Origin: Microcaldota archaeon | GTDB lineage: Archaea > Micrarchaeota > Micrarchaeia > Norongarragalinales > Norongarragalinaceae | DNA: 62,766 nucleotides | Assembly: GCA_016188965.1 (NCBI GenBank) | Contig: JACPGT010000001.1 | Span: 1-62,766, forward strand | Direction of reading: 5' to 3' | Shown here: positions 5,253 through 39,851 of the stretch, in pieces | Position numbering within the stretch: the first letter of the stretch is position 1 | Layout: each line of letters opens with the position of its first letter | Position numbers and translations under genes: made by a program | The notes under the pieces: generated by a model | The model's input: only the letters and a program-made list of their open reading frames with translations | The model's database searches: none | What the model was told of the DNA's origin: nothing

Positions 5253-5356
5253 ATGAAAAAAATCGTACCCGATGAGCTTCTTGGGGAGAAACGCGGTTTC
5301 CCCCCGCGAACCTCGGACGCATCCCCCTTTCCAAACCAGCTAGGTGAATCCATCAA
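5253..5356 (+). repeat. partial duplicate of the PIN/PilT gene start plus hairpin-rich insert
   Basis: Bases 5253-5273 repeat the first 21 bases of the gene at 5357 with two mismatches (MKKIVPD versus MKTIVPD). They are followed by an 83-base insert (5274-5356). The insert contains, on its reverse strand, a 15-base string (GGGGGAAACCGCGTT) also found in the trpB insert at about 39713-39727. The false start opens a 35-codon frame through the insert whose TGA overlaps the real ATG (ATGA), so translational coupling is conceivable. This matches the other gene-end duplications at 9180, 9500, 33328, 33780, 36014 and 39654. Confidence 0.7.
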
Positions 5357-6910
5357 ATGAAAACAATCGTACCGGATACCGGCGTCCTGATCGATGGCCG
5401 CATTACGCAACGCCTCGAACAGATGCAACATCCCCTCAAACTCCTAGTTCCCGAAGCCGTAGTGGCCGAATTGGAATACCAGGCCAACAGCGGAAAGGAA
5501 ATCGGATTCGCCGGACTTTCCGAACTGAAAAAGCTGTCCGACCTGGCCAAAGAAGGCAAGATCGAGATTGAATTCGCCGGAACGCGGCCCAACTCTTCGG
5601 AAGTCGAGCGCGCCAAATTCGGCGAAATCGACGCCAAGATCCGCGCCGTCGCCAAAGAGCGCAAGGCCGTCCTGTGGACCACCGACAAGGTGCAAAGCAA
5701 GGTCGCTGAAGCTGAAGGACTCGTCGTGGAATACCTGGAGCCCATCGTGGCCGAAGTCCGCCTCACGCTGGAGAAGTTCTTCACGCCCCAGACGCTTAGC
5801 GTCCACCTCAAGGACGGCGTCATCCCCAAAGCCAAGAGGGGCAAGCCCGGCGCATTCGAACTGGTGCCCATTGCCGAAAAGACCACGACCCGCAAGGAAA
5901 TCGAGCAACTCATGAAGGAAGCGGTGGAGTTTTCCAAACAGCACGAGAAAAGCTTCATCGAAATCGACAAGCGCGGCGCGACCGTGATGCAGGTCAAGGA
6001 TTTGCGCATCACGTACACCCGGCCGCCGGTGAGCGAGGCGTTCGAAGTCACCATCGTGCGGCCCATCACCAAGCTGTACATGGATGACTACGAATTGGGC
6101 GACAAACTCCGCGAACGGCTGGAAGGCGAAGCCGAAGGCATCCTGATTGCCGGGCCCCCCGGATCGGGCAAGTCAACGTTCGCCACGGCGTTGGCCGAAT
6201 ACTACAATTCCAAACGCAAGATTGTAAAGACATTGGAGTCGCCCCGCGACCTGCAAGTATCCGCGGAAATCACGCAGTACGCCCCGATGGATGGGAAAGC
6301 CGAAAACACGGCCGACATCCTGCTTTTGGTGCGGCCCGACTACACCATCTATGACGAAGTGCGCAAGCCGGATGACTTCCGCGTCTTTGCGGACCTGCGC
6401 ATGGCCGGCATCGGCATGGTCGGCGTGGTGCACGCCTCCAAGCCCATCGACGCCATCCAGCGCTTCATCGGAAAAATCGAGTTGGGCATGATTCCGCAGG
6501 TCATCGACACCATCTGCTTCATCGCCAAAGGCCAGGTGGCCAAGACGTACATGCTGACGTTCGTCGTCCGGCCGCCGCACGGCATGCCGGAAGCCGACTT
6601 GGCCCGGCCCGTGATCGAAGTTCGGGACCTCGAAACGGGGGTCCTGGAGTACGAAATCTACAAGTTCGGCGACGAAACGGTCGTGTTCCCGCTGAAGAAC
6701 GCCAAACCGGAAAAGAAGGTGGACGAGCGGCACGTGCAGAAGGTGTTGGACCGCTTCATAAAAGACGACTACACGTACGAAATCAGCGGCCGCACCGTCA
6801 TCCTTTCGGTTCCTGAACGCGCCATGAGCGCCATCATCGGCAAGAAGGGCAAGAACATCATGCAGCTGGAGAAGATGCTGGGCCTGAAAGTCGACGTCCG
6901 TGCCGATTGA
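5357..6910 (+). CDS. PIN domain - PilT/VirB11-like ATPase - KH domain protein (COG1855-type)
   Basis: A 517-residue three-domain protein common in archaea. Residues 1-130 form a PIN-like domain with acidic residues in VPDTGVLIDG and WTTDK. A central PilT/secretion-type ATPase has its Walker A motif GPPGSGKST at about 267-275, followed by an acidic Walker B-like DYTIYDEVRKP. A C-terminal KH RNA-binding domain (about 480-515) carries the GxxG loop as IIGKKGKNI. The combination suggests an RNA-linked ATPase with possible nuclease activity; the true role is not established. The start is set by homology of MKTIVPD and by the ATGA overlap with the leader frame of the upstream insert. Confidence 0.93.
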   Translation: MKTIVPDTGVLIDGRITQRLEQMQHPLKLLVPEAVVAELEYQANSGKEIGFAGLSELKKLSDLAKEGKIEIEFAGTRPNSSEVERAKFGEIDAKIRAVAKERKAVLWTTDKVQSKVAEAEGLVVEYLEPIVAEVRLTLEKFFTPQTLSVHLKDGVIPKAKRGKPGAFELVPIAEKTTTRKEIEQLMKEAVEFSKQHEKSFIEIDKRGATVMQVKDLRITYTRPPVSEAFEVTIVRPITKLYMDDYELGDKLRERLEGEAEGILIAGPPGSGKSTFATALAEYYNSKRKIVKTLESPRDLQVSAEITQYAPMDGKAENTADILLLVRPDYTIYDEVRKPDDFRVFADLRMAGIGMVGVVHASKPIDAIQRFIGKIELGMIPQVIDTICFIAKGQVAKTYMLTFVVRPPHGMPEADLARPVIEVRDLETGVLEYEIYKFGDETVVFPLKNAKPEKKVDERHVQKVLDRFIKDDYTYEISGRTVILSVPERAMSAIIGKKGKNIMQLEKMLGLKVDVRAD

Positions 6911-6915
6911 GGCAT

Positions 6916-7323
6916 TCAGGCGCGGCCGTGCGGATGCCTCGACTCATTTCGGAACCGTGCTTCCAACCCGCGGAACGTGGTGGACAAGATGGCAGTGGCG
7001 GCAGGGCCGTCTTTGATTTCATCCAAGTGCACCACCGTCGGGACATGCGCCAATTCTTCACGTTCCCGTTCGCTCTCCGTCAGGCCACGGATGTCCCTGA
7101 TCAGCGCCTTCAAATCGGAGGAAATCCGCGGGTCCCGGACCACGAGAGCATGGTGTTCCTGAAGCATGCCGAAAAGCGTATGCGCCAAATCCTCACGGTC
7201 AGCATCAACCGTTTCGTGTGAAAAATCGATTCGAAGGCCCTTGACTCTGCGACTGGCAGCATGCTCATGTTCCAACGGATGCGTGGCGGAGGAAAGAAAG
7301 ACGACGGAAGGCCGGACGACCAT
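6916..7323 (-). CDS. conserved-looking hypothetical protein, 135 aa
   Basis: Reads from the ATG at 7323 and converges on the PIN/PilT/KH gene with a 5-base gap. A TATA-like stretch (ATTTATAG on the minus strand, about 7344-7351) lies roughly 25 bases upstream, favouring a leaderless transcript. The protein is soluble and mixed alpha/beta, rich in His, Glu and Arg (RVKGLRIDFSHETVDADRED), with no signal peptide or membrane span. I recognise no family. The promoter sits against the double-hairpin element at 7364. Confidence 0.6.
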   Translation of the reverse strand: MVVRPSVVFLSSATHPLEHEHAASRRVKGLRIDFSHETVDADREDLAHTLFGMLQEHHALVVRDPRISSDLKALIRDIRGLTESEREREELAHVPTVVHLDEIKDGPAATAILSTTFRGLEARFRNESRHPHGRA

Positions 7324-7363
7324 GACGGACTAAACGACAGGCGCTATAAATCCGTTTGTGCTA

Positions 7364-7454
7364 TAGCAAACCGCGAAAGTCTTCCGAGACTTTCGCGCCG
7401 TTTGCTAGATAGCAATCCACGACTAATTTGTCGGGTTACTTTCGTGGATTGCTA
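7364..7454 (-). repeat. 91-base double-hairpin element, copy 1
   Basis: Two adjacent near-perfect hairpins, 7364-7407 (44 bases) and 7410-7454 (45 bases), separated by two bases. The reverse complement matches the element at 31671-31761 in order, length and spacing. Conserved blocks are CCACGAAAGTAACCCGAC and AGTCGTGG in the first hairpin and CGAAAGTC / GACTTTCG in the second. Stem bases that differ between copies change on both sides (CAAT/ATTG against TCGA/TCGA; a G-C pair against a T-A pair), so the structure is conserved. Each hairpin begins with TAG and ends with CTA. It may be a REP-like element or a structured RNA. Confidence 0.8.
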
Positions 7455-7500
7455 TAACGCTGCACGACCGAAGTGAAACCACTTGGACGAATCCGACGCA

Positions 7501-7686
7501 ATGAAACACCACGACATATTCATGGGCGAAAAAGAAGGCTGGACGCAAGTCGCCGCCGCCCTCAAGATGACGCCGGACGAGCTTTGGCACGCAGTTCGGA
7601 CCGGCAAAATCAAGGCCGTCGAAACGCACGAGCGCGTCTACATCATCCCGCCGGACGAGGAGTTGCGGCTGACGGGAAAAATCTAA
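7501..7686 (+). CDS. small HTH/excisionase-like protein, 61 aa
   Basis: From the ATG at 7501 the product is MKHHDIFMGEKEGW followed by VAAALKMTPDELWHAVRTGK. This resembles a MerR/excisionase-type helix-turn-helix in which a short helical repeat is followed by a K-A-V-x-x-x-x-R-V-Y-I-I-P strand. An in-frame TTG at 7483 is an alternative start. It lies just downstream of the double-hairpin element, whose edge (GCTATAA, 7451-7457) could act as its TATA box. Function unknown; a small DNA-binding protein is most likely. Confidence 0.6.
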   Translation: MKHHDIFMGEKEGWTQVAAALKMTPDELWHAVRTGKIKAVETHERVYIIPPDEELRLTGKI

Positions 7687-7710
7687 GGACTGCAACGCCA
7701 ATTCAAGCGG

Positions 7711-8337
7711 TTATTGAAACAATACTGCGCGTGCCGGTGCCGCCTCGCGGCCTTTGAGCTTCAACGGCAGGCAGACGAGGAAATAGCGGCCCGCCGCGAC
7801 GTCCCGAAGGCGGAGTCCTTCGATGATGTTCACGTCGTGGTCCAGAAGCGCGTGGTGCGTCGGGTGGGAGCCGGAGCGGAATTTGTCCACCGACAGGCCG
7901 TCGACGCCCACGGTCTTGACTCCGGTTTTCGCCAGCCAAGCCGCGGCTTCGACGTCAAGATAGATGAAGTCCTCGCGCCAGGCGTGCTCGGATGAGTTGC
8001 GCGTTTTGAGCAAAACGATGTCGCCTTTTTTCACGTCCGTCTTCTTCAACAAGTCCAGCGTGACTTTTTCCTTTTCCGCCGTCGCGTCGATGACTACGGA
8101 CTCGCCGACGAACGCCGAAAGCGGCACTTGGTCCAAGGAAGCCGCACCGGCCTTGAAGTGCAACGGCGTGTCGACGTGGGTGCCCGTGTGCGCGCCAAGC
8201 GACATGCGGGTGACGAAGGAGGCGTTTTCCGGGATTTTCTTGGCCCATTCGAAAGCCGGAAGGGGGTCGCCTTTGTAGACGGCCATGTCTTCCGACACGG
8301 TCGTCGAAATGTCAAACATCTTGGAGTACTGCATCAT
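7711..8337 (-). CDS. cyclase/kynurenine-formamidase-like hydrolase (paralogue 1)
   Basis: A 208-residue protein of the cyclase family (Pfam PF04199 type). The hallmark is the metal-binding segment LGAHTGTHVDTPLH (about 47-60), followed by GKKG-type strands and the conserved VGVDGLSVD near residue 145. Relatives hydrolyse N-formylkynurenine or act as amide hydrolases; the substrate here is unknown. It is 13 bases downstream of the phosphoglucose isomerase gene on the same strand, so the two are probably cotranscribed. A second family member is at 56133-56753. Confidence 0.85.
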   Translation of the reverse strand: MMQYSKMFDISTTVSEDMAVYKGDPLPAFEWAKKIPENASFVTRMSLGAHTGTHVDTPLHFKAGAASLDQVPLSAFVGESVVIDATAEKEKVTLDLLKKTDVKKGDIVLLKTRNSSEHAWREDFIYLDVEAAAWLAKTGVKTVGVDGLSVDKFRSGSHPTHHALLDHDVNIIEGLRLRDVAAGRYFLVCLPLKLKGREAAPARAVLFQ

Positions 8338-8350
8338 CGGTCAGACACCC

Positions 8351-9142
8351 TTATTCCTTCAATACGATGTCCCGAGGGTCCACCAGGAAGCCGAAGGAAT
8401 CCGGATTCTTCAGGAACAACTCGTAATTGAATCCGCCGTCAAGAAAATCGGCCAGTTTGGCACTGACCAAGCGGTTGAACTGCGGCGCGCGCATTTTTTC
8501 TAATTTGGGCAAATCGACGAAGGCCGGATTCGGCCGCTCGACGGCTCTTCCGTCCTGGCGCAGCAGATAGTACGCAGCTCCATGGCGCTGGACGTACGGC
8601 TCGTAGACGCTCTTGAACGTCCGCTCGACGAGGTTATCCATCACGACGGGCTCAAAGCCGGCGTTGATGGTGACGTGGCCGTAATCCGGCGGCATGATGG
8701 CCTTTTCGCCGGCGCGCGTCTCGACCAGGAAGCAGCGCTCGATTTCCAGGGTTCCTGTAGGCGTGGCTTTGCGCTTTTGTAGCAAGTAATGGGCCGTGCC
8801 GTGCAGGACTTCGTACAATTCCGGATAGCTCAACGGCGGGCGGATGGAATAGGGGTGGTAGTGGCCCAGCGTCTTGTTGTATTCCTCGCCCAGCATGACG
8901 GGGGGCACGACGGTGATGTCGTACCGCAGCGAGCGTTTCGCAAAGGCATCGCGGTCCTGCGGCCGGCACGACTCGCGGTACATCTGGTACAGGCCTTGGG
9001 AGTCCATGAGATTAACCGCTCCAGCCAAGACGGGGCGCATCTGTTTGACGGTCCGCACGTCCGGCTCCAAGACCTGGCCTTCGATGGACAACTTCAAGTC
9101 AGCGGAAAGTTCGGTAAGCAAGCCGGGATTTTGAAACTCCAT
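8351..9142 (-). CDS. cupin-type phosphoglucose isomerase
   Basis: A 263-residue protein from the ATG at 9142 (MEFQNPGLLTEL). The frame runs further upstream only because it enters the repeat element. The archaeal cupin PGI signature is clear: a metal-binding GHYHPYS block near residue 115, the matching Glu in YPELYEVLHG and a later His in YGHVTINAG. It interconverts glucose-6-phosphate and fructose-6-phosphate, consistent with the nearby aldolase and FBPase. Its upstream region is occupied by the insert beside tRNA-Thr, so the original promoter may have been displaced. Confidence 0.88.
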   Translation of the reverse strand: MEFQNPGLLTELSADLKLSIEGQVLEPDVRTVKQMRPVLAGAVNLMDSQGLYQMYRESCRPQDRDAFAKRSLRYDITVVPPVMLGEEYNKTLGHYHPYSIRPPLSYPELYEVLHGTAHYLLQKRKATPTGTLEIERCFLVETRAGEKAIMPPDYGHVTINAGFEPVVMDNLVERTFKSVYEPYVQRHGAAYYLLRQDGRAVERPNPAFVDLPKLEKMRAPQFNRLVSAKLADFLDGGFNYELFLKNPDSFGFLVDPRDIVLKE

Positions 9143-9179
9143 GCAAACACCTTGAACGTCCAAACAAATAAAACCAAAA

Positions 9180-9320
9180 GCCCAGGGGGGGAGGATCGCA
9201 ACGGTCGCCCCGGGGAACCCAGGTTCGCACAAGCCGCTTGGCGCCTTGTGGAACCCGCAAGTCCTTCGGACCTGCTACGGTTCCCCCTGGCCCGCCCTGG
9301 GCCTCGCCCCTCCAGGGACT
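9180..9320. repeat. partial tRNA-Thr 3' copy plus hairpin element A
   Basis: Bases 9180-9202 (GCCC then a G run and AGGATCGCAAC) are an imperfect copy of the tRNA-Thr 3' end at 9341-9360. The 118-base insert that follows (from 9203) is over 90 percent identical over about 108 bases to the insert before trpG (36056-36165). It folds into nested hairpins: an outer GGGGAACC with GGTTCCCC, a middle GGTTCGCACAAG with CTTGTGGAACC, and a small AAGTCC-TTC-GGACCT hairpin. Both copies keep the conserved unpaired strings CCCAGG and CCCGCAAG. Confidence 0.8.
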
Positions 9321-9339
9321 AAAAACGAATCAGAAAAAA

Positions 9340-9411
9340 AGCCCCGGGGGAGGATCGAACTCCCGACTTCCTGTTTACAAAACAGGCGCTCTACCGCTGA
9401 GCTACCGAGGC
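9340..9411 (-). tRNA. tRNA-Thr (TGT)
   Basis: A 72-base cloverleaf on the minus strand. The acceptor GCCTCGG pairs with CCGGGGC (one G-U). A D-arm GCTCAGCGGTAGAGC, an anticodon stem CCTGT/ACAGG with loop TTTGTAA giving anticodon TGT, and a T-arm GGGAGTTCGATCCTCCC follow. The discriminator base is U, as in many archaeal tRNA-Thr. No intron. Both ends are flanked by partial copies of itself next to hairpin inserts. Confidence 0.93.
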
Positions 9412-9522
9412 ACGAAAGACGTTTGATGCGCAAGGACTATAGTGTTTTCTTTGGCGGTAGGCCGCCCCTTTCTTCTCCAAAAGAAAGGGGCGACCGCGTC
9501 TCTACCGCTGAGCTACTGGGGC
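9412..9522. repeat. hairpin insert plus partial tRNA-Thr 5' copy
   Basis: Bases 9500-9522 repeat the first 23 bases of tRNA-Thr with two mismatches. Between this copy and the real tRNA lies an 88-base insert with a perfect 12-bp stem, CGCCCCTTTCTT (9463-9474) against AAGAAAGGGGCG (9481-9492). CTATAG in the insert (9437-9442 region) is about 27 bases before the tRNA start on the minus strand, so the insert may now supply the tRNA promoter. The motif GGTAGG next to a hairpin and GACC also appears in the insert 3' of tRNA-Ser. Bases 9523-9725 hold no gene that I can see. Confidence 0.75.
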
Positions 9523-9725
9523 TTTTGAGCAAAACCATCGGTCTGGCAACGTGCGCGTTATCATCCGCTGGACTTGGTCGATGCCAAGTCTGCGCGTGCA
9601 GCCGCCCACGATGGCAAACTCCGCTACTTCTTTTTTTTTCTTTCTTTGAGCAGAGGGAAATACTTGTATCCTTGATGCTATTTATACGATTGAAAACAGC
9701 AGTTTCATGTAAAAGGTGAAACCCG

Positions 9726-10031
9726 ATGGAAACCTTCGTTTATTCATGCGCCGACCTCAAGGAACTCAAGAAAGTGCTGGACGCCGACCCGTTGGCCGAC
9801 GACTCGTTCACGCGCTTAGGCTACATCCTGCGCGAAGGCAAACTGTACGGCCTCCAGGGCTACGTCGTCCACTTCAAGGCCGACGCGTCCGTGGCGAAAA
9901 AGTACCAGGACCGCATGGCCTCGGTGGCCGGATGCGCGCCGCTGGGCGAGGCGGACCGCAAGAAAGTTGTGGACGCGATCGAAGCGGAAGAGAACGCCGC
10001 CACCGCGGGCTTCGGCAGCCTCTTCGGCTGA
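9726..10031 (+). CDS. conserved hypothetical protein, 101 aa
   Basis: A short soluble protein starting METFVYSCADLKELKKVLDA and ending in a Gly/Phe-rich tail (GFGSLFG). A TATA-like CTATTTATACG at about 9678-9688 and a purine-rich AAAGGTGAAA before the ATG support the start. The pattern of a beta-strand (YVVHFKADASVAKKYQDRM) and helices suggests a small alpha/beta fold with one or two Cys. I do not recognise the family. Confidence 0.65.
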   Translation: METFVYSCADLKELKKVLDADPLADDSFTRLGYILREGKLYGLQGYVVHFKADASVAKKYQDRMASVAGCAPLGEADRKKVVDAIEAEENAATAGFGSLFG

Positions 10032-10132
10032 AACCGAGAGGGACACCGCCTTGCGATGCGGTTGAGTTTGAAGCCCGTGCGGACGCGCCGGCATTCCTAT
10101 ATAGTCATGTTGCGTGCGTTGTTGGATAAACT

Positions 10133-11086
10133 ATGTTGCGGGCATTGGCAGCACACAACGGAACGGTTGAGGAAATCACCGACTTGGAAAAACTCCAGGC
10201 CGAACTCAAGGACGCGCACAAGCGGTTCTGGATTGATATCGAGAAACCCACGACTGAAGAGTACGGATTCCTCGACAAGACGCTGGGCCTGCACAGCCTA
10301 GTACTTGAAGACATAACGCATGAACGCCAGCGGCCGAAGGTGGAGCCATACGACGAGCACATCTACGTCGTGCTGAAAGTCTTCGAGAACGGCCGCACCA
10401 GCCAGGTCAGCCAGCTGAACCTCGTGCTGGGACCACACTACGTTCTTTCCGTCCGGTCCAAACCCATGCCTTTCCTGGAGGAAGTATGGGAACGCGCGAA
10501 GAAGAACAACGGCATGCTCAGCCGCGGGGCCGACTTCGCGCTCTACAGCATCCTGGACGCGTTCGTCGACAGCCTGTTCCCGCTGGTCACGGAGCTGGAT
10601 GCGGAATTGGACGCCGTCAGCGAAAAAGTCTTCAAGGATTCCTCACCGGAAGTCATGAACCGCCTCTTCACTCTCAAGCGGCGCCTGTTCAACACCCGCA
10701 AGGCCGTCGCCCCCCTGCGCGACGTCTTGACGACGTTGTCCCGCCACGACAGCACGCTGATCAACAAGAAAAACGCAGTATACTTCCGCGACGTGTACGA
10801 CCACATGATTCGTATCATCGAATCGCTAGACAACGACCGTGAAGCCACTTCTTCCGCCATGGAAGGCTACCTTACCGGCGTGTCGAACAACCTGAACCAG
10901 GTCATGAAGAAGTTGACGGCCATCACCGCCATCATCATGGTTCCCAGCCTCATCGCGGGCATTTACGGCATGAACTTCGGCAACATCACGGATTACGCCT
11001 TCGGCGGTGCTTCCGTAGCCTTTTTGATGATGGCCGCAGCCGTGCTGGCGCTGGGCATCTACTTCAAACGCCGGCAATGGTTGTAA
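10133..11086 (+). CDS. corA: CorA-family divalent cation channel
   Basis: A 317-residue protein with a large cytoplasmic N-terminal domain and two C-terminal transmembrane helices (about 255-310). The family selectivity motif appears as GMNF after the first helix (IAGIYGMNFGN). It forms pentamers that import Mg2+ or related ions. A TATA box CCTATATAG at 10096-10104 lies about 30 bases before the ATG, so the gene has its own promoter. Confidence 0.93.
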   Translation: MLRALAAHNGTVEEITDLEKLQAELKDAHKRFWIDIEKPTTEEYGFLDKTLGLHSLVLEDITHERQRPKVEPYDEHIYVVLKVFENGRTSQVSQLNLVLGPHYVLSVRSKPMPFLEEVWERAKKNNGMLSRGADFALYSILDAFVDSLFPLVTELDAELDAVSEKVFKDSSPEVMNRLFTLKRRLFNTRKAVAPLRDVLTTLSRHDSTLINKKNAVYFRDVYDHMIRIIESLDNDREATSSAMEGYLTGVSNNLNQVMKKLTAITAIIMVPSLIAGIYGMNFGNITDYAFGGASVAFLMMAAAVLALGIYFKRRQWL

Positions 11087-11167
11087 GAAATCGGCTACCG
11101 GGAAATCCAATCGCGTTTTTAAGTCCCAGGCTCCACTCTTTGTTTTCCGTGATGAAGCATATGAGTG

Positions 11168-11452
11168 ATGAGCGTCGGGCCTTGGATCGTCTCGGTTTTC
11201 GCCGGGACTTGGCCCGTCGCGATGATGACGATCTTGAGTGCTGAAATGAAATCAAAAATCAGTAAGAAAGACGCGCGCCTTTTTGTCGGCGGCATCGGCA
11301 TTGGCATATTTGGAAACATTGCCGCAAATCAGATTGCAAAAGCTTGGAAAGAAAGTCCAAGTCTCGGAGGCGAAAACGCCTTAGGACTAATTGCAATTAT
11401 CATTTGCTTTGCAGTTGCAGCATATCTAATTTGTTATGTAGAAAAGAAGTGA
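11168..11452 (+). CDS. small membrane protein, 94 aa, uncertain start
   Basis: The frame from the ATG at 11168 gives up to three hydrophobic spans: WIVSVFAGTWPVAMMTI, then FVGGIGIGIFGNIAANQI and LGLIAIIICFAVAAYLICYV. A TATA-like GTTTTTAAG at 11116-11124 fits this start. A second candidate start is the ATG at 11246 (MKSKISKKDARLF), where base composition drops and which would leave two spans. The 3' part has lower GC than its neighbours, hinting at a different origin. No family recognised. It ends six bases before the oxidoreductase gene. Confidence 0.5.
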   Translation: MSVGPWIVSVFAGTWPVAMMTILSAEMKSKISKKDARLFVGGIGIGIFGNIAANQIAKAWKESPSLGGENALGLIAIIICFAVAAYLICYVEKK

Positions 11453-11458
11453 CGTCAA

Positions 11459-12196
11459 ATGATCGATGCCGATTTGACCGTTTCGAAAATCGTGCAGGAA
11501 GCGCACGACGTCAAGACCTTCCGATTCAGCCTACAGGAGTTGCCGGAAGACCAAGCGTTGGCGCAGAAACCCGGACAGTTCGTCTCGGTGCAGGTCCAAA
11601 CGCCGGAAGGCCTTCAGGTGCGCTCCTTTTCCATCTCATCTTCGCCCTTGGAGCAGGACCACTTGGACATCACCGTCAAGTGCTATCCGGACAGTTCCGC
11701 CGCCCAGGCCTTGCACCAGCTGAAGGAAGGGGACAAACTGCACGTCCGCGGGCCGTTCGGACAGTTCGTCTTGAACGACGAAGACCACGACGTCGTCTTC
11801 ATCGCCGGGGGCAACGGCGTGACGCCCCTGATGGCCATGATGCGCTACATCGTCGGAAAAAGACTGCCCGTCAAGCCGATTCTTATCTACAGCAACCGCA
11901 CGCAGGCGGACGTCATCTTCAAGGACGAGTTGGAACGCTTGGGCCGCGAAGGCAGGATCGTGGCGGACATCACGTTGACGAATGAGCCGCAAGGCAGCGG
12001 GTGGGCCGGTTTGACGGGCCGTATCGATGGCGCCATGATTGAAAAGATGGCCGCTCCCGTCAAGGACAAAGCGTTCTTTCTCTGCGGTCCGCCGGAAATG
12101 GTGCGCGCCATGCATGCCGCCCTGTTGAGCGTAGGCGTGCCGGAACAACAAATCCGCATGGAGCAGTTCATCCGGCCGGCCAAGAAGACCGCCTAG
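11459..12196 (+). CDS. ferredoxin-reductase-type FAD/NAD(P)H oxidoreductase
   Basis: A 245-residue FNR-superfamily protein. Residues about 1-100 form the FAD-binding barrel with the flavin motif RSFSISSSP. From about 110 comes the NAD(P) domain, with FIAGGNGVTPLMAMMRY binding the pyrophosphate and a C-terminal FFLCGPPEMV motif. There is no fused ferredoxin or iron-sulfur domain, so an external electron acceptor is expected. It is stand-alone here; the partner is unknown. Confidence 0.88.
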   Translation: MIDADLTVSKIVQEAHDVKTFRFSLQELPEDQALAQKPGQFVSVQVQTPEGLQVRSFSISSSPLEQDHLDITVKCYPDSSAAQALHQLKEGDKLHVRGPFGQFVLNDEDHDVVFIAGGNGVTPLMAMMRYIVGKRLPVKPILIYSNRTQADVIFKDELERLGREGRIVADITLTNEPQGSGWAGLTGRIDGAMIEKMAAPVKDKAFFLCGPPEMVRAMHAALLSVGVPEQQIRMEQFIRPAKKTA

Positions 12197-12213
12197 CGCA
12201 GGAGGCTCGAACC

Positions 12214-12657: not shown

Positions 12658-12699
12658 GAAAAAGGCCTTGAATCGGCCCACAGGGAAAAAGAAAACACG

Positions 12700-13812: not shown

Positions 13813-13939
13813 AACGAGTTCACCTCAAGCTAACAAACAGGGCAAGATCAGCTTCGTTTGTCGTCAAACAAGAACGCAGACAAAGTAGAATAAGCTTTCG
13901 CGCATCGTTGTCGGACGGGGCCGCAACGGCGCGGTTTTT

Positions 13940-14290: not shown

Positions 14291-14320
14291 TGGGTTTGCA
14301 ATGTTTCGGCCCAGGAGCCG

Positions 14321-15382: not shown

Positions 15383-15403
15383 AGCTCATTGGCTTGGAAA
15401 ACG

Positions 15404-15416: not shown

Positions 15417-15440
15417 CTCGCTGGTGCAAAAGGAAAAGCC

Positions 15441-29038: not shown

Positions 29039-29051
29039 ACAGCAAACCCCC

Positions 29052-29728: not shown

Positions 29729-29852
29729 GCCGTGGACGCAGCCTGACCGGCATCCGCCGTTCCGGCAACTGTTTTTAAATCAATCCGCCTCAAAGCAAGC
29801 TACGACGAGACGATCCGTTCCACGCCGTCTTCTGATCGAGGTGCTTTTTTCC

Positions 29853-30764: not shown

Positions 30765-30785
30765 GACGCACGGGGATGATGACGC

Positions 30786-31664: not shown

Positions 31665-31670
31665 GGATTA

Positions 31671-31761
31671 TAGTCGACCACGAAAGTAACCCGACTTAAG
31701 AGTCGTGGTCGACTATCTAGCAAACGGCTCGAAAGTCTCGGCGGACTTTCGAGGTTTGCTA
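31671..31761 (+). repeat. 91-base double-hairpin element, copy 2
   Basis: A 45-base hairpin (31671-31715), two bases, then a 44-base hairpin (31718-31761), the inverse orientation of the copy at 7364-7454. The first stem base is TCGA/TCGA where the other copy has CAAT/ATTG; one inner pair is T-A where the other has G-C. It begins six bases after the fbp stop, and its right edge (GCTATAATA) may serve as the TATA box for the gene at 31789, about 28 bases further on. Confidence 0.82.
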
Positions 31762-31788
31762 TAATAAGTCAAACCGGTTGAACAAAAC

Positions 31789-32406: not shown

Positions 32407-32439
32407 ATGAGAACGGCACTCGTTCCGTGCATGGCGGGG

Positions 32440-33054: not shown

Positions 33055-33290
33055 ACGGACAATATGCCGGGATGACGTTTATCAGCATTTCTCCGATGCT
33101 GGGACCATGAAAGCGCAAGCGGCCTCAAACCCCGGAGACGAAACACGGCCAGCGTATTCGAAAAACGGATATCGCAAAAGACGACGGATAGGCGGATGCT
33201 CAAATCATTGCCACGCATAAGGAAAGGTCGGCCCGAAACGAATTCTTTTCAGCAGGACAAAAAACGCGCCCGTTTTGGAAAAACAAGCGC

Positions 33291-33535
33291 TTTAAAATCG
33301 TCCACTGCAACAATAAATCCCCCAAATGCCGGGGTGGCAGAATCACGGTCGGAACCGCGGGGAACCCAGGTTTGAAGCAAACCTTAGGAGGTTTGCTGCA
33401 TGCTGCAAACACCGAGTGTTTGCTCGCACCCCCCAGTTTCCGCATAAGTCCCAAAAAGGACTTATGGGACCCGCAAATTCAGCAAAATTTGCAAGGTTCC
33501 GTCAATCCTGACCCCTTCCTGCGAAACGTAGCCTC
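33291..33535 (+). repeat. duplicated tRNA-Ser promoter and 5' end, followed by a four-hairpin insert
   Basis: TTTAAAATC at 33291-33299 and the 17-base GCCGGGGTGGCAGAATC at 33328-33344 copy the tRNA-Ser promoter (33536-33544) and 5' end (33573-33589), with identical 37-base spacing. The 17-base block is identical. The following insert has four hairpins: 33376-33397, 33405-33423, 33443-33466 and about 33474-33491. It keeps the strings GCGGGGAACCCAGG and GGGACCCGCAA that also occur, around different stems, in the inserts at 9203 and 36056. The truncated tRNA copy still has a promoter and could drive transcription of the insert. Confidence 0.78.
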
Positions 33536-33572
33536 TTTAAAATCAGCTCCTGCCAAAGAATAATTCCCCAAT

Positions 33573-33696
33573 GCCGGGGTGGCAGAATCCGGTAACGCGC
33601 TAGACTCGAGGCCATTTCTCTTTGTTAGTTTGGGAGAAAACCAGCGAGCCATCTAGTGGTCTTCGGACCTTCCGAGTTCAAATCTCGGCCCCGGCG
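33573..33696 (+). tRNA. tRNA-Ser (CGA) with intron
   Basis: Acceptor GCCGGGG pairs with CCCCGGC, discriminator G. The anticodon stem CTAGA (33600-33604) pairs with TCTAG (33652-33656). The loop C-T-CGA-G gives anticodon CGA. A 40-base intron (33611-33650) follows position 37. A long variable arm GGTCTTCGGACC and T-arm GAGTTCAAATCTC confirm a serine tRNA. The intron position is the canonical archaeal bulge-helix-bulge site. A TATA-like TTTAAAATC starts 37 bases upstream. Confidence 0.9.
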
Positions 33697-33798
33697 TATT
33701 CATCTTTCAATCCGCAAAAACAAGACTCGGGGGATCGGGGTAACGTAGGACTAAGGGGCGCTCCCCTTGGTCCCGGTTGCAAATCTCGGCCCCGGCGT
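33697..33798 (+). repeat. insert plus duplicated tRNA-Ser 3' end
   Basis: The 19 bases CAAATCTCGGCCCCGGCGT at 33780-33798 repeat 33679-33697 exactly; just upstream the copies differ (CCCGGTTG against CCGAGTT). Between them is about 82 bases with an AAGGGG-CGC-TCCCCTT hairpin and a GGTAACGTAGGAC string reminiscent of the insert 5' of tRNA-Thr. A T-rich run (TTTTTTCTTTT) after the second copy could be the tRNA terminator. Confidence 0.72.
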
Positions 33799-33850
33799 TT
33801 TTTCTTTTCATTCGCCTAAAGCGCAAGCGTTTTGCTGGTCCAACCGCACA

Positions 33851-33973
33851 ATGAAAGATATGCCGGCCGCATCGAAGAAACGCAAGACCTGCAGCCGCGG
33901 GCATGCATACGAAGGCCGCGGGCCGTGCCCGGTTTACTGGCCGAAACGCAACCGTTGGGAAAAACCGCGATAG
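33851..33973 (+). CDS. tiny zinc-ribbon-like protein, 40 aa
   Basis: Starts MKDMPAASKKRKTCSRGHAY and continues EGRGPCPVYWPKRNRWEKPR. The C-x3-H ... C-P-V-Y-W-P pattern resembles small archaeal C-x-x-G-H / C-P-x-C-W-P zinc ribbons, with the last Cys replaced by Tyr, so metal binding may be weakened. Basic residues suggest nucleic-acid binding. The short length makes this a tentative call. Confidence 0.42.
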   Translation: MKDMPAASKKRKTCSRGHAYEGRGPCPVYWPKRNRWEKPR

Positions 33974-34012
33974 GCGGAATGCCAAGCGAGGTTCGGTCCG
34001 GACGGACGTCAC

Positions 34013-34525
34013 TCAATAAACACTCATTTTTTTGACGCAGGAAAGCGCGCTGAGTTCTCCTAACACCTTAGCCAGTGGTTTCTTCTGCAACACGATAAAC
34101 AGCTTGGGCCGCTCGAACAGCTCAGGATCCTGCGACAGGATTTGTCGGATGGGTACGCGGTTTCGTGCAAGGCACGCCGTGATTTGCGCTACGATTCCGA
34201 ATTTAGACGCGACGGACGCCGGCGGCTCCAATTCCAGCACGGTCAGGCCAAGCGCCGAAGCGTTCTGCACGAAAAGGGGGCCGGCCGGCTGGAGACTCTC
34301 GAACACGGGCCGCAAGAAGTCGTCGGATTGGATGCGTGCCACGGTGGCGGATACGACGCGGCGGTCCACGCCGCAGGCCTGGGCAAGGGAGACGTCCTTG
34401 ACTTGCACACCGGCGGAATTCACGGCACTGTTGCGGACGGAAAGGCCCAACTCCAACATCTTTTCGGCCACGGCTTTCTGCGCCGGAAAATCGGCGAACG
34501 CAAGGCGGACGCGCTCCAGGATCAT
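34013..34525 (-). CDS. trpY: TrpY-like regulator of amino acid metabolism with ACT-like domain
   Basis: A 170-residue protein from the ATG at 34525; an upstream TTG is less likely. Residues about 15-90 are helical with a possible HTH (VSLAQACGVDRRVVSATVAR). The C-terminal 80 residues look like an ACT domain (GIVAQITACLARNRVPIRQI). This matches COG2150-type regulators and TrpY of Methanothermobacter, which is divergent from its trp operon and binds TGTACA boxes. Both features occur here: divergence from trpE, and TGTACA at 34538. Tryptophan-responsive repression of the operon and itself is likely. Confidence 0.78.
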   Translation of the reverse strand: MILERVRLAFADFPAQKAVAEKMLELGLSVRNSAVNSAGVQVKDVSLAQACGVDRRVVSATVARIQSDDFLRPVFESLQPAGPLFVQNASALGLTVLELEPPASVASKFGIVAQITACLARNRVPIRQILSQDPELFERPKLFIVLQKKPLAKVLGELSALSCVKKMSVY

Positions 34526-34560
34526 GATGAACAATTATGTACAACAAAGATATAAATATT
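34526..34560. promoter_or_regulatory. divergent trpY-trpE control region with TRP-box-like sites
   Basis: TGAACA (34528-34533) and TGTACA (34538-34543) lie four bases apart and together form an imperfect palindrome. The GATATAAATATT block (34549-34560) reads as a TATA box in both directions, about 29 bases from the trpY ATG and about 27 from the trpE ATG at 34581, so both mRNAs are probably leaderless. TGTACA is the known TrpY recognition core. A regulator bound here would affect both promoters. Confidence 0.72.
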
Positions 34561-34580
34561 ACGTTGGGCACGCTCAAGGC

Positions 34581-36008
34581 ATGAAACCGCCAAACGCAGG
34601 CACCTCCGCAAGCCACGCCGCAATTTCGGATAGCGGGTTCCTGGGCGCGCGTTCCGGCTTTTCCTCGCAACCGTTGGATCTTTTGGACCCGTTAAAGGCC
34701 TTCGAGCGGCTCTACACGGAGTGCGAGCATTGCTTCCTGTTGGAGTCGTTCGAACAGGACGGCACGCTGGGGCGCTATTCTTATCTGGGCTTCAACCCGG
34801 AGACGAGAGTCCTCATCAAGGACGGCATCATCCGCGTCGGGACGGAGGAACGCGAAGAAGACCCATTCTCGTTTCTCAAGTCATACACCAAGACGTCGGA
34901 CCGCAAGGGTTTCCGCGGCGGCCTCGTCGGATACCTGGCCCACGACGCAATCCAATACGTCGAGGACTTCAAACCCAAGCGCGGCACGTTTGCCGACATG
35001 GAGTTCGGACTCTACCTGGACGGAGTCGTCTTCGACCACCTACAGCACTCGGCACGCTACGTGACGGCCGGAAAAGACCGGATGGACGAATTGAAAAGCC
35101 TCCTGGTACAAACGGAGGCACCGGATGACGGGAACGACGAGATGGACGCCAAGCTCTTCGAACCGTTCGTCAAGCAGGATGCCTTTTCCGATTCCGTGCT
35201 CAAGGCGCAGGAGCGCATTGCCGCCGGCGACGCGTTCCAAGTCGTTCTGTCCCGCAAGTTTCCCGTCCGCATCAAAGGCAGCAAAATGCCGTTCTACCGC
35301 CAGCTTCGGCAGACCAACCCGTCCCCGTACCAGTATTTCCTGAAGATGGGCAAGCGGGAAATCATCGGCTCAAGCCCCGAGATGCTGGTGCGCGTGGAAA
35401 ACCAGACAGCAACCACGTTTCCCATCGCCGGGACGCGCCCCCGCGGCCGCAACCCGGCCCAAGATGCACAGCTAGAAGCAGAGTTGCGGGCCGATGCCAA
35501 GGAAAATGCGGAACACGCCATGCTGGTGGATCTAGCGCGCAACGACATCGGCCGCGTCTGTAAGCCCGGCACGGTCAAAGTCTCGGCGTATGGCCAGGTC
35601 AAGAAGTTTAGCCACGTGCAACACCTGGTTTCCGAAGTCTCCGGACAGCTGTTCGGCACCAGCACCGACGCGCTCAAATCCGTCTTCCCCGCCGGCACAT
35701 TATCCGGCGCGCCCAAACTATCGGCGCTCAAGATCATCGACCAACTCGAACCGCAACCCCGCGGCCCGTACGGCGGCGCCGTTGGCTTTCTGTCGCTGGA
35801 CGGATCGTGCGATTTTGCCATCAGCATCCGAACGCTCTTCTGCGACGGCGACACGGCGTTCGTTCAGGCCGGCGCCGGCATCGTGAAGGACTCCGACCCG
35901 AAGGCCGAATTCAAGGAAACAGAATACAAAGCACAAGCCCTCCTTGATTGCTTGAAACCGCAAATGGAAGAAAAGGGAAAAACAAAAAACCGCATTGGCA
36001 CGATGTGA
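34581..36008 (+). CDS. trpE: anthranilate synthase component I
   Basis: A 475-residue chorismate-binding enzyme. It makes anthranilate from chorismate with ammonia from TrpG. The N-terminal Trp-binding motif LLES (FLLESFEQDGTLGRYSYLG) and the C-terminal catalytic FPIAGTRPRGRNP and DLARNDIGRVCKPGTVKV blocks are present, so feedback inhibition is probably retained. It heads the trp operon with its own TATA box. The stop is five bases before the false trpG start at 36014. Confidence 0.96.
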   Translation: MKPPNAGTSASHAAISDSGFLGARSGFSSQPLDLLDPLKAFERLYTECEHCFLLESFEQDGTLGRYSYLGFNPETRVLIKDGIIRVGTEEREEDPFSFLKSYTKTSDRKGFRGGLVGYLAHDAIQYVEDFKPKRGTFADMEFGLYLDGVVFDHLQHSARYVTAGKDRMDELKSLLVQTEAPDDGNDEMDAKLFEPFVKQDAFSDSVLKAQERIAAGDAFQVVLSRKFPVRIKGSKMPFYRQLRQTNPSPYQYFLKMGKREIIGSSPEMLVRVENQTATTFPIAGTRPRGRNPAQDAQLEAELRADAKENAEHAMLVDLARNDIGRVCKPGTVKVSAYGQVKKFSHVQHLVSEVSGQLFGTSTDALKSVFPAGTLSGAPKLSALKIIDQLEPQPRGPYGGAVGFLSLDGSCDFAISIRTLFCDGDTAFVQAGAGIVKDSDPKAEFKETEYKAQALLDCLKPQMEEKGKTKNRIGTM

Positions 36009-36013
36009 AACTC

Positions 36014-36181
36014 ATGGCTCCGCGGATTTTGGTATTGGACAACTTCGACTCCTTGGTCGCCCCGGGGGAACCCAGGTTCGCACAAGCCGCTTGGCGCCTT
36101 GTGGAACCCGCAAGTCCTTCGGACCTGCTACGGTTCCCCCTGGCGCGCCCTGCGCCTCACCCCTTCCTGACGTGATTTGAC
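36014..36181 (+). repeat. duplicated trpG start plus hairpin element B
   Basis: Bases 36014-36052 encode MAPRILVLDNFDS, a near copy of the trpG start (36182-36220, MSPRILVLDNFDS). The 39-base copies have nine mismatches: five codons differ, four of them synonymously, and the last 20 bases before the final codon position are identical. Element B (about 36056-36165) is over 90 percent identical to element A at 9204. The false start opens a 54-codon frame through the element ending at 36175, seven bases before the real ATG. Without the insert trpE and trpG would be five bases apart. Confidence 0.82.
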
Positions 36182-36754
36182 ATGAGCCCAAGAATTCTCG
36201 TATTGGACAACTTCGACTCGTTCACCTACAACTTAGTCCAGCTGTTTCAAGTGGCCGGCGCGGAGTGCCTCGTCTTCCGCAACACCGCATCATACGAACA
36301 GGTACTGCGGACCAAACCGGATGCCATCATCATCTCGCCCGGACCCGGAACCGTGGAAAAACCCAAGGACTTCGGCGTATGCGCCCGCGTCATCCGCGAA
36401 CTGGACGTGCCCCTGCTGGGCGTCTGCCTGGGCCACCAAGGCATCGCCTACGCGTACGGCGCCAAAATCGTACGAACCACGCCGGTGCACGGAAAGACAA
36501 GCCAAGTCCTGCACGACGGCAAAGGCATTTTCCAAGGCGTCAAAAATCCGCTCCTCGCGGCGCGCTACCACTCCCTCGTCGTCGATCCGGCCACCGTGCC
36601 GGACGTCCTGGAAGTGACGGCCCGCACGCCGGACGGCCAAATCATGGCATTGCAACAAAAACAAAAGCCGCAGTACGGAGTCCAATTCCACCCCGAATCG
36701 TTCATCACCGAAGACGGCCGCAAAATGGCCGATAACTTCCTCAAGCTGGTCTAA
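36182..36754 (+). CDS. trpG: anthranilate synthase component II (glutamine amidotransferase)
   Basis: A 190-residue class I amidotransferase supplying ammonia to TrpE. The catalytic triad is complete: Cys in LLGVCLGHQGIAYA, and His and Glu in QFHPESFITEDG. The start at 36182 matches the family N-terminus (RILVLDNFDSFTYNL); the copy at 36014 is a decoy. The next gene begins immediately after the stop. Confidence 0.96.
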   Translation: MSPRILVLDNFDSFTYNLVQLFQVAGAECLVFRNTASYEQVLRTKPDAIIISPGPGTVEKPKDFGVCARVIRELDVPLLGVCLGHQGIAYAYGAKIVRTTPVHGKTSQVLHDGKGIFQGVKNPLLAARYHSLVVDPATVPDVLEVTARTPDGQIMALQQKQKPQYGVQFHPESFITEDGRKMADNFLKLV

Positions 36755-37750
36755 ATGGACGCCCTTCTTTCAAGGATTGACAACCAGCATGACCTGGACG
36801 AAGACCAGGCACGCACCCTAGCGGACGGCTTCTTTGACGGCGGTCTGGACGAAAGCGCCATGAAGGCCACGCTGCTGGCCTTGAATGCCAAAGGAATCAC
36901 CGTGGGAGAATTGGTCGGGTTTGCAAGAAGCATGAAGACACATTCCATCGCCATCCGCCCCGACATCGAAGCCATCGACACGTGCGGCACCGGCGGGGAC
37001 GGCATGCGCACGTTCAACATCTCCACCGCGGCCGCCATTTTAGTCTCCGCCTGCAACGTGGCCGTGGCCAAGCACGGCAACCGCGGACAGTCAAGCTCAA
37101 CCGGGTCTGCGGATGCGCTGGAAGCACTGGGCATCCCAATCGACTTGCCACCGGAAAAGACGCGCGAACTCATCAACTCGACGGGCTTCGGCTTTCTTTT
37201 TGCGCCGCAATACCACCCGGCCATGAAGCGCGTCGCGCCCGTACGCAAAGCCCTGGGCACCAAGACCATATTCAACATGCTGGGCCCGTTGACGAACCCG
37301 GCCAACCCGTCCGCCCAGGTCATCGGCGCCTACAGCCCCGAGGCACAGGAAAAGATGGCGCAGGCCTCCGCCCGCTTGGGCATCCGCCGGGCGCTCGTAT
37401 TGCACGCCGAAGGCCACGATGAAGCCGGACTGGCCTGCACGCGCGTGCTGGACATCCAAGGCAGCCAAATCAACGAGTCATACCTGGAGCCAACGGAATA
37501 TGACATGCAGGTAAATGCCACGGAGTTTTTTGTCGCCAATGCCGTCCAAAGCGCTGAAAAAATCCGCTTGGCCTTGAGCGACGCCGCGACGATGGAAAGC
37601 CGCATCGTCTGCCTGAATGCCGGATTGGCGCTTCAGGCGGCCGGAAAGGCGGCGGATGCGCAAAGCGGTTTTCAAATGGCACAGCAAGCCGTGCAAAGCG
37701 GCCGGGCCGCCGCCAAACTGGCCCAAATAACGGAGGCCGCGAAGGCATGA
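36755..37750 (+). CDS. trpD: anthranilate phosphoribosyltransferase
   Basis: A 331-residue enzyme transferring the phosphoribosyl group of PRPP to anthranilate. The family motif DTCGTGGDGMRTFNIST is intact, followed by KHGNRGQSSSTGSADALEAL and NMLGPLTNPA. It begins directly after the trpG stop and overlaps trpC (ATGA). Confidence 0.96.
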   Translation: MDALLSRIDNQHDLDEDQARTLADGFFDGGLDESAMKATLLALNAKGITVGELVGFARSMKTHSIAIRPDIEAIDTCGTGGDGMRTFNISTAAAILVSACNVAVAKHGNRGQSSSTGSADALEALGIPIDLPPEKTRELINSTGFGFLFAPQYHPAMKRVAPVRKALGTKTIFNMLGPLTNPANPSAQVIGAYSPEAQEKMAQASARLGIRRALVLHAEGHDEAGLACTRVLDIQGSQINESYLEPTEYDMQVNATEFFVANAVQSAEKIRLALSDAATMESRIVCLNAGLALQAAGKAADAQSGFQMAQQAVQSGRAAAKLAQITEAAKA

Positions 37751-38529
37751 GCTTCCTGGACGAAGTCGTCAGCGGTGTGCGGCAGAACATGAAGGCGGGG
37801 CATTACGACGTGCCGGAAGGCCGCGCCAACCTCGGCATACAACCAAGGGGCTCAAACTGGTTCCAAAAGGCATTCCAAGACGGTTTTGGCATCATCGCCG
37901 AAATCAAGCCGAACTCGCCCAGCGCCGGCAAATTGTATTCCGGGGACATCGGAAGTCTGGCAATGGCATATGCCCGCGGCGGCGCCACGGCGTTGAGCGT
38001 GTTATGCGAAGGCACGCGTTTTGGCGGCTCACCGCAGAACCTGGATGGGGCCAAAGCAGCCGGGATTCCGTTGTTGGCCAAGGACTTCGTGGTCTCAACA
38101 AAGCAAGTGGAATCGTATGCGGCGCATGGCGCGGATGCCGTGCTAATGATTCAAGAGCTATTCGACCGAAAGAAGACTGACGCGCCGCGCGAAGAGATGA
38201 TCCAGGCGGCGCATGAGATGGGGCTTTGCGTGCTTTTGGAAGCGCATGCCACGGAGGCCGTCTTGAAGGCGCTGGAATCGGATGCGGATTTCGTCGGCAC
38301 CAACAACCGTTCCCTTGACGACCTGTCGATGAACCCGTTGCATTACCTGAACGTGATTTCCGAAATCGGGCCTGAAAAAGCCAGCCAGAAGCCGATGGTC
38401 GCGGAAAGCGGATTTTCCACAAAATCCGACGTGGAACTAGCCAAGGCAAATGGGTTTGCCGGCGTGCTGGTGGGAACATCGTTGCTGAAATCAAAGGACG
38501 CGGAAGCCGCAGTGAGGGCGTTGCAATGA
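37747..38529 (+). CDS. trpC: indole-3-glycerol-phosphate synthase
   Basis: A 260-residue TIM barrel that closes the indole ring. Catalytic blocks [41 protein letters not shown] and [10 protein letters not shown] are visible. The length is that of a stand-alone enzyme; there is no fused TrpF domain. It overlaps both neighbours by four bases. Confidence 0.95.
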
Positions 38530-39851
38530 ACCCGAAAGAAGAACCCGCGGAAAGGAAAAACGGATACTTCGGCCCGTACGGCGGCCGCTTCGTTCCCGAA
38601 ACGCTGGTCGAGCCGCTGCGCCAGGTCGAGGAGGCGTATGAGCGGGCGAAGAAGAACCCGCAATTCCAGGCGCGCTTTCAGCAATTGCTGCGCGAATACG
38701 CCGGACGGCCCAGCGAATTGTATTTCGCTGAAAACCTATCCTTGCGGACGGGCCGGCGCATTTACCTAAAACGCGAAGACTTGCTGCACACCGGATCGCA
38801 CAAGATCAACAACGCGTTGGGCCAAGGCCTTCTGGCCAAAGCCATGGGCAAAAAGCGCGTCATCGCGGAGACGGGAGCCGGCCAGCACGGCGTTGCATCG
38901 GCCACGGCCTGCGCCTTGCTGAAGATGCCGTGCGTCGTGTACATGGGATCGGAAGACGTCGAGAGGCAGAAATTGAACGTCTTTCGAATGAAACTGTTGG
39001 GCGCAGAAGTGGTGCCAGTTGAATCCGGTTCCAAGACGCTCAAAGACGCCATCAACGAGGCATTGCGGGATTTCTGCGCGCATCCGGACAGCTACTACCT
39101 CATCGGCTCGGTCGTAGGGCCTTCGCCGTACCCGGAAATGGTGCGCGACTTCCAACGCGTCATCGGCGATGAGACCAAGGAGCAAATATTGCAGAAGGAA
39201 GGCCGACTGCCGGATGCAATCGTGGCCTGCGTCGGCGGCGGCAGCAACGCCATGGGATTGTTCTATCCGTTCGAGGACGATGCCGGCGTGAAGAAAATCG
39301 GCGTGGAGGCCGCGGGCGCCGCATCTATCGTCAACGGCAAAGTCGGCGTCCTGCATGGCGCCAAAACAAAAATTCTACAAACCAGGGACGGCCAAATCGA
39401 GGGCACGCATTCCATCTCGGCGGGATTGGATTACGCCGGCATCGGGCCGGAACATGCGTATTTTGCCGATGAAGGCATCGTGCAGTACGTTCCGGCGGAC
39501 GATGCCGACGCGCTCGAGGGCGTCCGACTTTTGAGCGAGTCGGAAGGCATCATTCCGGCGTTGGAGTCGGCGCACGCCGTAGCGTTCGGCATCCGGTACG
39601 CGAAAACGCTTCCGGAAGGCGCGATCGTCGTCATCAATTTGAGCGGGCGGGGAGACAAGGACGTGCCGACACTCATGCAACACTGGAAGGGGGCGAGGAC
39701 GACGGATGTCCAGGGGGAAACCGCGTTGCCCCCGGGGATCCGGGCGGACAAGGACGTTCCCACATTAATGGAAAAACTTGGCTTGGAAAAAACGGAAGTC
39801 AAAGAAAAAACGAAATCTTTTGATGTGAAGGAAAAAGTTGAAACCGCTTGA
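38526..39851 (+). CDS. trpB: tryptophan synthase beta chain with a C-terminal insertion
   Basis: A 441-residue TrpB1-type subunit joining indole and serine. The PLP lysine lies in [13 protein letters not shown], the phosphate-binding loop is [10 protein letters not shown], and the end motif is [10 protein letters not shown]. The family normally ends soon after GRGDKD. Here DKDVPTLM occurs twice (residues 377-384 and 408-415), separated by 23 residues encoded by a repeat-like insert, and a Lys/Glu-rich tail follows. The frame is kept, so the enzyme is probably active, but the surface near the C-terminus is altered. Confidence 0.95.
39654..39770 (+). repeat. in-frame insert in trpB flanked by 24-base duplications
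   Basis: GACAAGGACGTGCCGACACT.. (39654-39677) and GACAAGGACGTTCCCACATT.. (39747-39770) match at 20 of 24 bases; all four differences are synonymous, so both encode DKDVPTLM. The 69-base insert between them (39678-39746) is a multiple of three and contains GGGGGAAACCGCGTT, which is also on the reverse strand of the insert at 5274-5356. A GGGGG..CCCCC pairing gives a short hairpin. Confidence 0.8.

Follow-up and report, generated by a model that had tools for sequence, protein, structure and literature searches.

Small hairpin elements between duplicated gene ends in genomes of Micrarchaeota, and how they may come to replace gene ends

In the mORFs of fungal mitochondria (Allomyces atp6; Glomus atp6, atp9, cox2 and nad3), an inserted foreign end joins the gene and the native end is left downstream (PMC3630166). 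Here we describe duplicated gene ends around small hairpin elements in a stretch of 62,766 nucleotides, hereafter the window, which is contig C14 of a metagenome-assembled genome (MAG) of Candidatus Micrarchaeota (G000; 1.37 Mb, 58% GC, 21 contigs), and in related genomes also named Candidatus Micrarchaeota, among them a MAG of the same genus (G001); G001, G002 and G008 are groundwater MAGs. We call E the truncated old copy of a gene end, which lies outside the element, and E' the complete copy, which is joined to the gene body. The reading that we favour, and to which we would give a probability of about 0.4, is that one Micrarchaeota family harbours small mobile elements, structured and non-coding, which enter gene ends, bring with them a replacement end from the homolog of another lineage and spread by hairpin-directed, homology-facilitated illegitimate recombination. 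They share with mORFs that the differences between the two copies are mostly synonymous and that in some cases, here in trpB, the reading frame continues across the insert. mORFs, in contrast, encode a homing endonuclease, occupy gene 3' ends and are few per genome, whereas the elements are non-coding, 50-250 nt long, and found at about 46 loci in one genome, at 5', 3' and tRNA ends.

Some elements integrate at tRNA genes by means of tyrosine recombinases, and their attachment site (attP) carries the gene end. As in such integration, the incoming end here would complete the gene, the old fragment lies on the far side and breakpoints fall in the T-loop and D-arm; unlike in it, the elements have no integrase and no common core, their targets are mostly protein genes and they measure only 50-250 bp. 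Short mobile palindromic elements of a comparable kind are known from Rickettsia and, to our knowledge, replaced gene ends have not been described for these, for the GC clusters of yeast mitochondria or for the hairpin elements of sponge mitochondria. Dispersed hairpins, a stem with a bulge and an intermediate that may be single-stranded recall the repetitive extragenic palindromes with their associated tyrosine transposases (REP/RAYT) and the IS200/IS605 elements, but the Y1 transposase of those systems (PF01797) had no match in G000, G001, G002 or G008, and we know of no duplications created by IS200/IS605 insertion. Unlike miniature inverted-repeat transposable elements, they show no terminal inverted repeats, the left end pairing instead with an internal loop, and their duplications are variable rather than short and fixed. 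With the GC clusters (PMC4478555) and the sponge hairpin elements (PMC2800124) they share the condition of short, GC-rich mobile palindromes with constrained structure, composite or nested copies and no known dedicated enzyme; GC clusters have flanking repeats of 2-3 nt (AG, ACT) (PMC4478555). The signature is mORF-like at the level of the gene and like GC clusters or mitochondrial hairpins at the level of the element, with a full match to none, and there is a sizeable chance that the elements form a new class rather than a variant of known systems.

An earlier note on the window had listed seven junctions at which hairpin inserts lie between two copies of a gene end. All seven could be located at the positions it gave or very close to them (Table 1), with inserts at tRNA ends and gene ends between duplicated gene ends; the window contains no transposase gene. 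The duplication of gene ends stands, but the copies are mostly inexact, and the phenomenon extends far beyond the 35 kb first considered; the duplications run from about 15 to more than 90 bp, so that there is no fixed-length target-site duplication. The genome-wide search for repeats that the note had called for found the pattern throughout G000, and not in the window only. Local direct repeats with a score of at least 20 and 50-450 bp apart number 154 genome-wide, against 0-2 at control offsets; part of these pairs are tandem repeats within protein genes, which were removed before each site was read by hand. The curated set comprises 71 element loci (46 in G000 and 25 in G001) and is incomplete, further sites having been observed and left outside it. 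BLAST of the inserts against the genome returned a dispersed set of families, as for the inserts at the tRNA-Thr 3' side and at trpG (96% identity over 110 bp), so that the inserts are related to one another, and many orthologous sites are empty, rather than the inserts being ancestral and unrelated. The gene-end duplications with hairpin inserts are confirmed as genuine and genome-wide. An assembly artefact of mixed strains could be considered, since every genome here is a MAG and E and E' resemble alleles of two strains; yet independent MAGs, obtained from several groundwater samples, show the same element families with the same polarity and duplications, and shared non-allelic inserts go beyond what strain mixing alone can give, which leaves this explanation barely credible.

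The order of parts is the same in all 71 curated loci, namely outer flank, E, element left end, element, spacer, E' and gene body, and the polarity is fixed, the left end always touching E and the right end always facing the outer side of the complete gene. Protein genes are targeted at either end, 5' or 3', and so are tRNA genes. The inserts are built on a core element of about 60 nt with two covarying hairpins and fall into subfamilies by their left end (GGTCG, CGGAT, CTAAG, GTAAG, GCAAG and others). The usual short form reads P1 (the 5' terminal 5 nt), CCCC, hairpin 1, (T)TGG, hairpin 2 and TCG-(A)CCCC. Compensatory changes occur in both hairpins in an alignment of 29 short elements (in hairpin 2, columns 50-58 are GC in 12, CG in 10 and AU in 2), and P1 can pair with 5 nt of the hairpin 2 loop in 35 of 37 elements, against a mean of 16.3 and a maximum of 24 in shuffles. 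By eye we also noted a bulged T in hairpin 1 and coupled changes (A/G, TTGG/CTGG, TCGA/TCGC). Hairpin-forming ends, as known from IS200/IS605 and REP/RAYT, are therefore part of these elements, and in the window only tRNAs exceeded the Rfam gathering score, other matches being weak and at chance level. Additional mini-hairpins are nested in hairpin 1 at many loci (36077-36130 and 33373-33490 in the window), with stems such as CACAAG..CTTGTG and CGCAAGTCC..GGACTTGCG; they also occur elsewhere and look like a separate mobile layer. One extra nucleotide, at times two, is found in E, 3-5 nt ahead of the element, at about 18-20 of 55 loci (in the window, for example, at 9496-9500 and 33345).

The nature of the duplication shows in the differences between E and E'. 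Their aligned codons are identical in 321 cases, synonymous in 69 and non-synonymous in 52, where random placement of the same changes gives about 25 synonymous and 114 non-synonymous; by codon position (1/2/3) the differences number 31, 45 and 89, and changed codons make up 0.43 of the outer third, 0.19 of the middle and 0.18 of the inner third. The codon count includes a few loci in the wrong frame (e.g. C5_3894 and C1_138590) and alignments that run past the stop, both of which inflate the non-synonymous class, and the synonymous bias is thus truly stronger than counted. At trpG the two copies differ by 4 synonymous and 1 non-synonymous codon changes. In the near-identical pairs G1C9:97876, G1C8:43991 and C1:347514 the differences are confined to the last 1-3 codons and are synonymous. 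In G002 (L245), 68 bp of identity give way sharply to a remaining 27 bp with mostly synonymous differences, and in G008 (L211) the differences are, in our reading, ortholog-like, combining synonymous changes with I/V, S/T and Q/E replacements. The duplication of a coding end often sets in right at the ATG, even between copies of 100% identity (C12:24752, C1:38909). As in mORFs, a synonymously diverged second gene end stands beside a chimeric gene and, as with tRNA-integrating recombinases, the gene is restored by the complete end, seen here in the intact tRNA-Thr, tRNA-Ser and open reading frames (ORFs). On the 5' side of tRNA-Ser the duplication covers 55 bp including a TATA-like box (76% identity); within 33290-33589 the box and the tRNA end match between the copies, and the spacer between box and tRNA end differs. 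Two loci of G000 (C6:15930-16330 and C6:11904-12325) carry three gene-end copies in series with two different elements between them, the same gene having been invaded repeatedly.

This pattern is unlike that of a dead fragment drifting in place, and both copies would therefore have diverged as functional sequences; one of the two would accordingly come from a homolog of another lineage. Going by the sequence comparison, the foreign copy seems most simply to be the end carried by E', derived from a diverged homolog. An ordinary insertion that duplicates its target site exactly, over a variable length, and whose two copies then diverge in place would agree with the 22 of 71 scored blocks that are 100% identical and with the wide range of pair identity, as expected from differing ages. 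A detached fragment, however, should drift at all codon positions, and here the changes are mainly synonymous and lie mainly at the extreme gene end; three ends of the transcription factor B gene (C6:15972-16330) all retain one peptide; and the terminal-codon differences of the near-identical pairs, the starts at ATG and the conservative replacements of L211, which are typical of orthologs, all argue the other way. We consider this explanation improbable, and the view of the earlier note that these are ordinary target-site duplications gives way with it. Even less probable, in our opinion, is that the truncated copies are themselves functional, as guide sequences or leader peptides on a structured RNA, and are conserved for that reason. 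E does lie directly 5' of a compact structured element and does keep its coding sense; against this, the pattern is equal at 5', 3' and tRNA ends, where a leader peptide is impossible, no motif resembling a protospacer- or transposon-adjacent motif (PAM/TAM) was seen beside the native junction, TnpB (PF07282) was not found in G000 or G001, and for most genes the insertions are not conserved between these two genomes. TnpB matches are present in G002 and G008, and with none in G000 and G001 it was rejected as the common enzyme.

Turning to how a replacement end could be brought in, we hypothesise that the incoming DNA, made up of element, spacer and gene end, begins at the hairpin. The replacement end would consist of terminal codons, of a ribosome-binding or promoter region, or of a tRNA end. 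On one side the incoming DNA would pair with the recipient gene through gene homology; on the other, the hairpin-capped end, with its terminal 5 nt base-paired, would avoid trimming and be joined illegitimately slightly inside the gene, whereby E would be duplicated and the old end would stay outside as a fossil. Such a hairpin-directed, homology-facilitated illegitimate recombination could be carried out by host enzymes only. We infer this route; E' meets the gene at a homologous position, and the left end of the element joins varied sequences. Homology-facilitated illegitimate recombination as described combines one homologous with one illegitimate junction and takes in small linear foreign DNA (PMC3240628), but its known cases are sporadic, whereas the elements have a constant hairpin end at one junction and a duplication as the outcome. 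In yeast without flap endonuclease, duplications and palindrome-linked insertions arise (PMC5677150), and unprocessed hairpin flaps can, by analogy only, give related outcomes. Taken furthest, and with less than even odds, this would be a new class of selfish element, a non-coding hairpin without a dedicated enzyme that takes up gene ends and moves from one related archaeon to another via gene homology and its own structured, capped end, altering the ends of essential genes on its way.

Several points weigh against this reading. The route would assume competence in Micrarchaeota, protection from exonucleases and the joining of flaps, and it does not account for the first arrival of an element at a new, unrelated gene. 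The extra nucleotides in E are explained neither by it nor by the action of an enzyme. At sites where E and E' differ, the G001 ortholog agrees with E' 44 times and with E 27 times, in an alignment anchored on E', and this comparison does not mark E' as the foreign copy. Exact targets are used again, in tRNA 3' insertions at the T-loop, in thiI, hit in G000 and G001 by different subfamilies, and at one gene start in G000 and G008, which suggests some site selection. MAG completeness of 71-90% limits every absence call.

The re-use of exact positions would also be expected from a site-specific enzyme acting in trans (a tyrosine integrase, a homing endonuclease or another nuclease) that cuts gene ends, with repair from an element-bearing homolog, in which case the hairpins would travel along as non-autonomous passengers, in the manner of homing or tRNA-gene integration. 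The breakpoints in the T-loop and D-arm resemble those of integrase sites within tRNA genes. Each of the four element-rich genomes (G000, G001, G002 and G008), which are the genomes of family f1 that match the strict element pattern, has a tyrosine integrase, which few other members of the family have; G005 and G006, with weak model matches, have none. Moreover, fungal mORFs yield similar duplicated, synonymously diverged ends via a homing endonuclease (PMC3630166). Against such an enzyme stand dozens of unrelated targets without a shared core, the lack of a motif after the junction and of a junction palindrome in coding loci, where structure is weaker around the junction than in the gene body. 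The integrases examined do not lie beside elements, none is encoded within one, and their surroundings had the look of ordinary integrated DNA. A search for gene-end duplications separated by 0.5-80 kb, with an enzyme in the interval, gave no enzyme-bearing copy. Of 29 genomes of the order, 27 contain LAGLIDADG matches, for the most part within long ORFs which are probably inteins, and the curated inserts are too short to encode a homing endonuclease, none having been found inside the elements. A LAGLIDADG endonuclease gene near a tRNA on contig C4 of G000 (about 35.1-35.8 kb; L088:15091-15792) lies within a 16S rRNA intron; this was the free-standing candidate, and LAGLIDADG carried by elements was rejected. 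The idea of a Cas1 or casposon-type integrase, put forward in the earlier note, found no support, with no PF01867 match in G000, G001, G002, G005, G006 or G008 and a duplication length that is not fixed. Reverse transcriptase (PF00078) had no match in the 29 genomes of the order, by which a group II intron or other retroelement was rejected, and insertion on the lagging strand only was rejected, as orientation shows no replication-strand bias or clustering. We regard an enzyme in trans as a serious possibility, though a doubtful one.

Of 295 genomes from the class, at least 6 gave a match to the element in a covariance-model search, and the matches listed all lie within one family (f1: G000, G001, G002, G005, G006 and G008). 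Copies, again among the matches listed, are many in G000, G001, G002 and G008, 2 in G006 and 1, weak, in G005. Flank duplication lay beyond the 1% point of the null, in which left and right flanks of different elements were paired, for 36 of 48 model-detected elements, some loci of G002, G006 and G008 not being in element orientation, with left and right exchanged. Duplications with elements were seen in G002 and G008, and related subfamilies with duplications in G022, which belongs to a different family of the same order. The insertion is absent from G001 at trpG, the PIN gene, trpB, GAPDH, C20:5240, C17:104375, C17:95735, C12:24752 and C1:347514; thiI, transcription factor B and the C5:3894 gene are hit in both G000 and G001. 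The trpG of G002 bears a separate insertion (L201). Since orthologous sites in the relative are often empty, the insertions appear recent. A scan of 84,980 species for the exact pattern returned Micrarchaeota and scattered matches in other, mostly GC-rich genomes, which we judge to be chance, and viral contigs, phages and plasmids had no match to the elements.

If the favoured reading is true, essential genes of a DPANN archaeon (tRNAs, trpG, trpB, GAPDH, transcription factor B, thiI) can be repeatedly invaded without loss, and the exchange of gene ends between lineages has left a record there that can be dated, in which each E would be a snapshot of a former allele. It would be a prokaryotic gene-end replacement akin to that of mORFs, affecting many genes per genome with no enzyme detected, and it would become testable whether DNA can be a mobile element by virtue of its structure alone. 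The annotation of gene starts and stops is complicated in element-bearing genomes.

Table 1. Coordinates of the gene-end copies, elements and tRNA at the seven junctions, in positions of the window.
Site	Feature	Position	Strand	Remarks
PIN/PilT/KH gene	E, truncated old start	5253..5273	+	21 bp, 90% identical to 5357-5377; orthologous site in G001 empty
PIN/PilT/KH gene	Hairpin element, GAGC-TCTT-type left end	5274..5332	+	Related copy C1:206387-206442
PIN/PilT/KH gene	E', complete start	5357..5377	+	ORF 5357-6910
tRNA-Thr 3' side	E, old 3' end fragment	9180..9202	-	+1 nt before element (GATCG-C-AAC)
tRNA-Thr 3' side	Hairpin element, GGTCGCC type	9203..9313	+	Additional hairpins nested in hairpin 1
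tRNA-Thr(TGT)	Intact tRNA	9340..9411	-	ARAGORN, Rfam; own 3' and 5' ends are E' for both flanking inserts
tRNA-Thr 5' side	Hairpin element, AT-rich GGTCGCC..TTTCTTT type	9449..9495	-	
tRNA-Thr 5' side	E, old 5' end fragment	9496..9522	-	+1 nt (TAGAG-A-CGC); 23 bp, 91% identical to 9389-9411
tRNA-Ser 5' side	E, old promoter and 5' end	33290..33349	+	+1 nt (GAATC-A-CGGT)
tRNA-Ser 5' side	Hairpin element, CGGAACCG type, nested hairpins	33350..33519	+	Relatives C12:27591, C17:49721
tRNA-Ser 5' side	E', promoter and 5' end of intact tRNA-Ser	33535..33589	+	tRNA at 33573-33696
tRNA-Ser 3' side	E', 3' end of intact tRNA-Ser	33672..33697	+	
tRNA-Ser 3' side	Hairpin element, CCGGGACC type	33722..33776	-	
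tRNA-Ser 3' side	E, old 3' fragment, break in T-loop	33777..33798	+	
trpG	E, truncated old start (MAPRILVLDNFDS)	36013..36054	+	42 bp, 79% identical to E'
trpG	Hairpin element, GGTCGCC type, two nested hairpins	36055..36167	+	
trpG	E', start of intact gene (MSPRILVLDNFDS)	36181..36222	+	Site empty in G001
trpB	E', end region of intact body	39648..39680	+	ORF 38526-39851; 33 bp, 79% identity
trpB	Hairpin element, CGGATCC type	39686..39744	-	Model R1 match, 64 bits
trpB	E, old end fragment	39745..39773	+	Site empty in G001

At trpB, E' has no stop codon and the reading frame runs on through the element, the predicted TrpB protein (38526-39851) gaining about 22 residues from the in-frame element in addition to the duplicated end. 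Two intron-containing tRNA genes of the window (33573-33696 and 62521-62629), missed by ARAGORN, were found by a covariance model. The window also contains, at 7343-7460 and 31670-31716, a second, unrelated family of dispersed hairpins (TATAGCAATCC...GGATTGCTAT, with a CGACNNATT-like centre), of which many copies occur elsewhere in G000 and G001.

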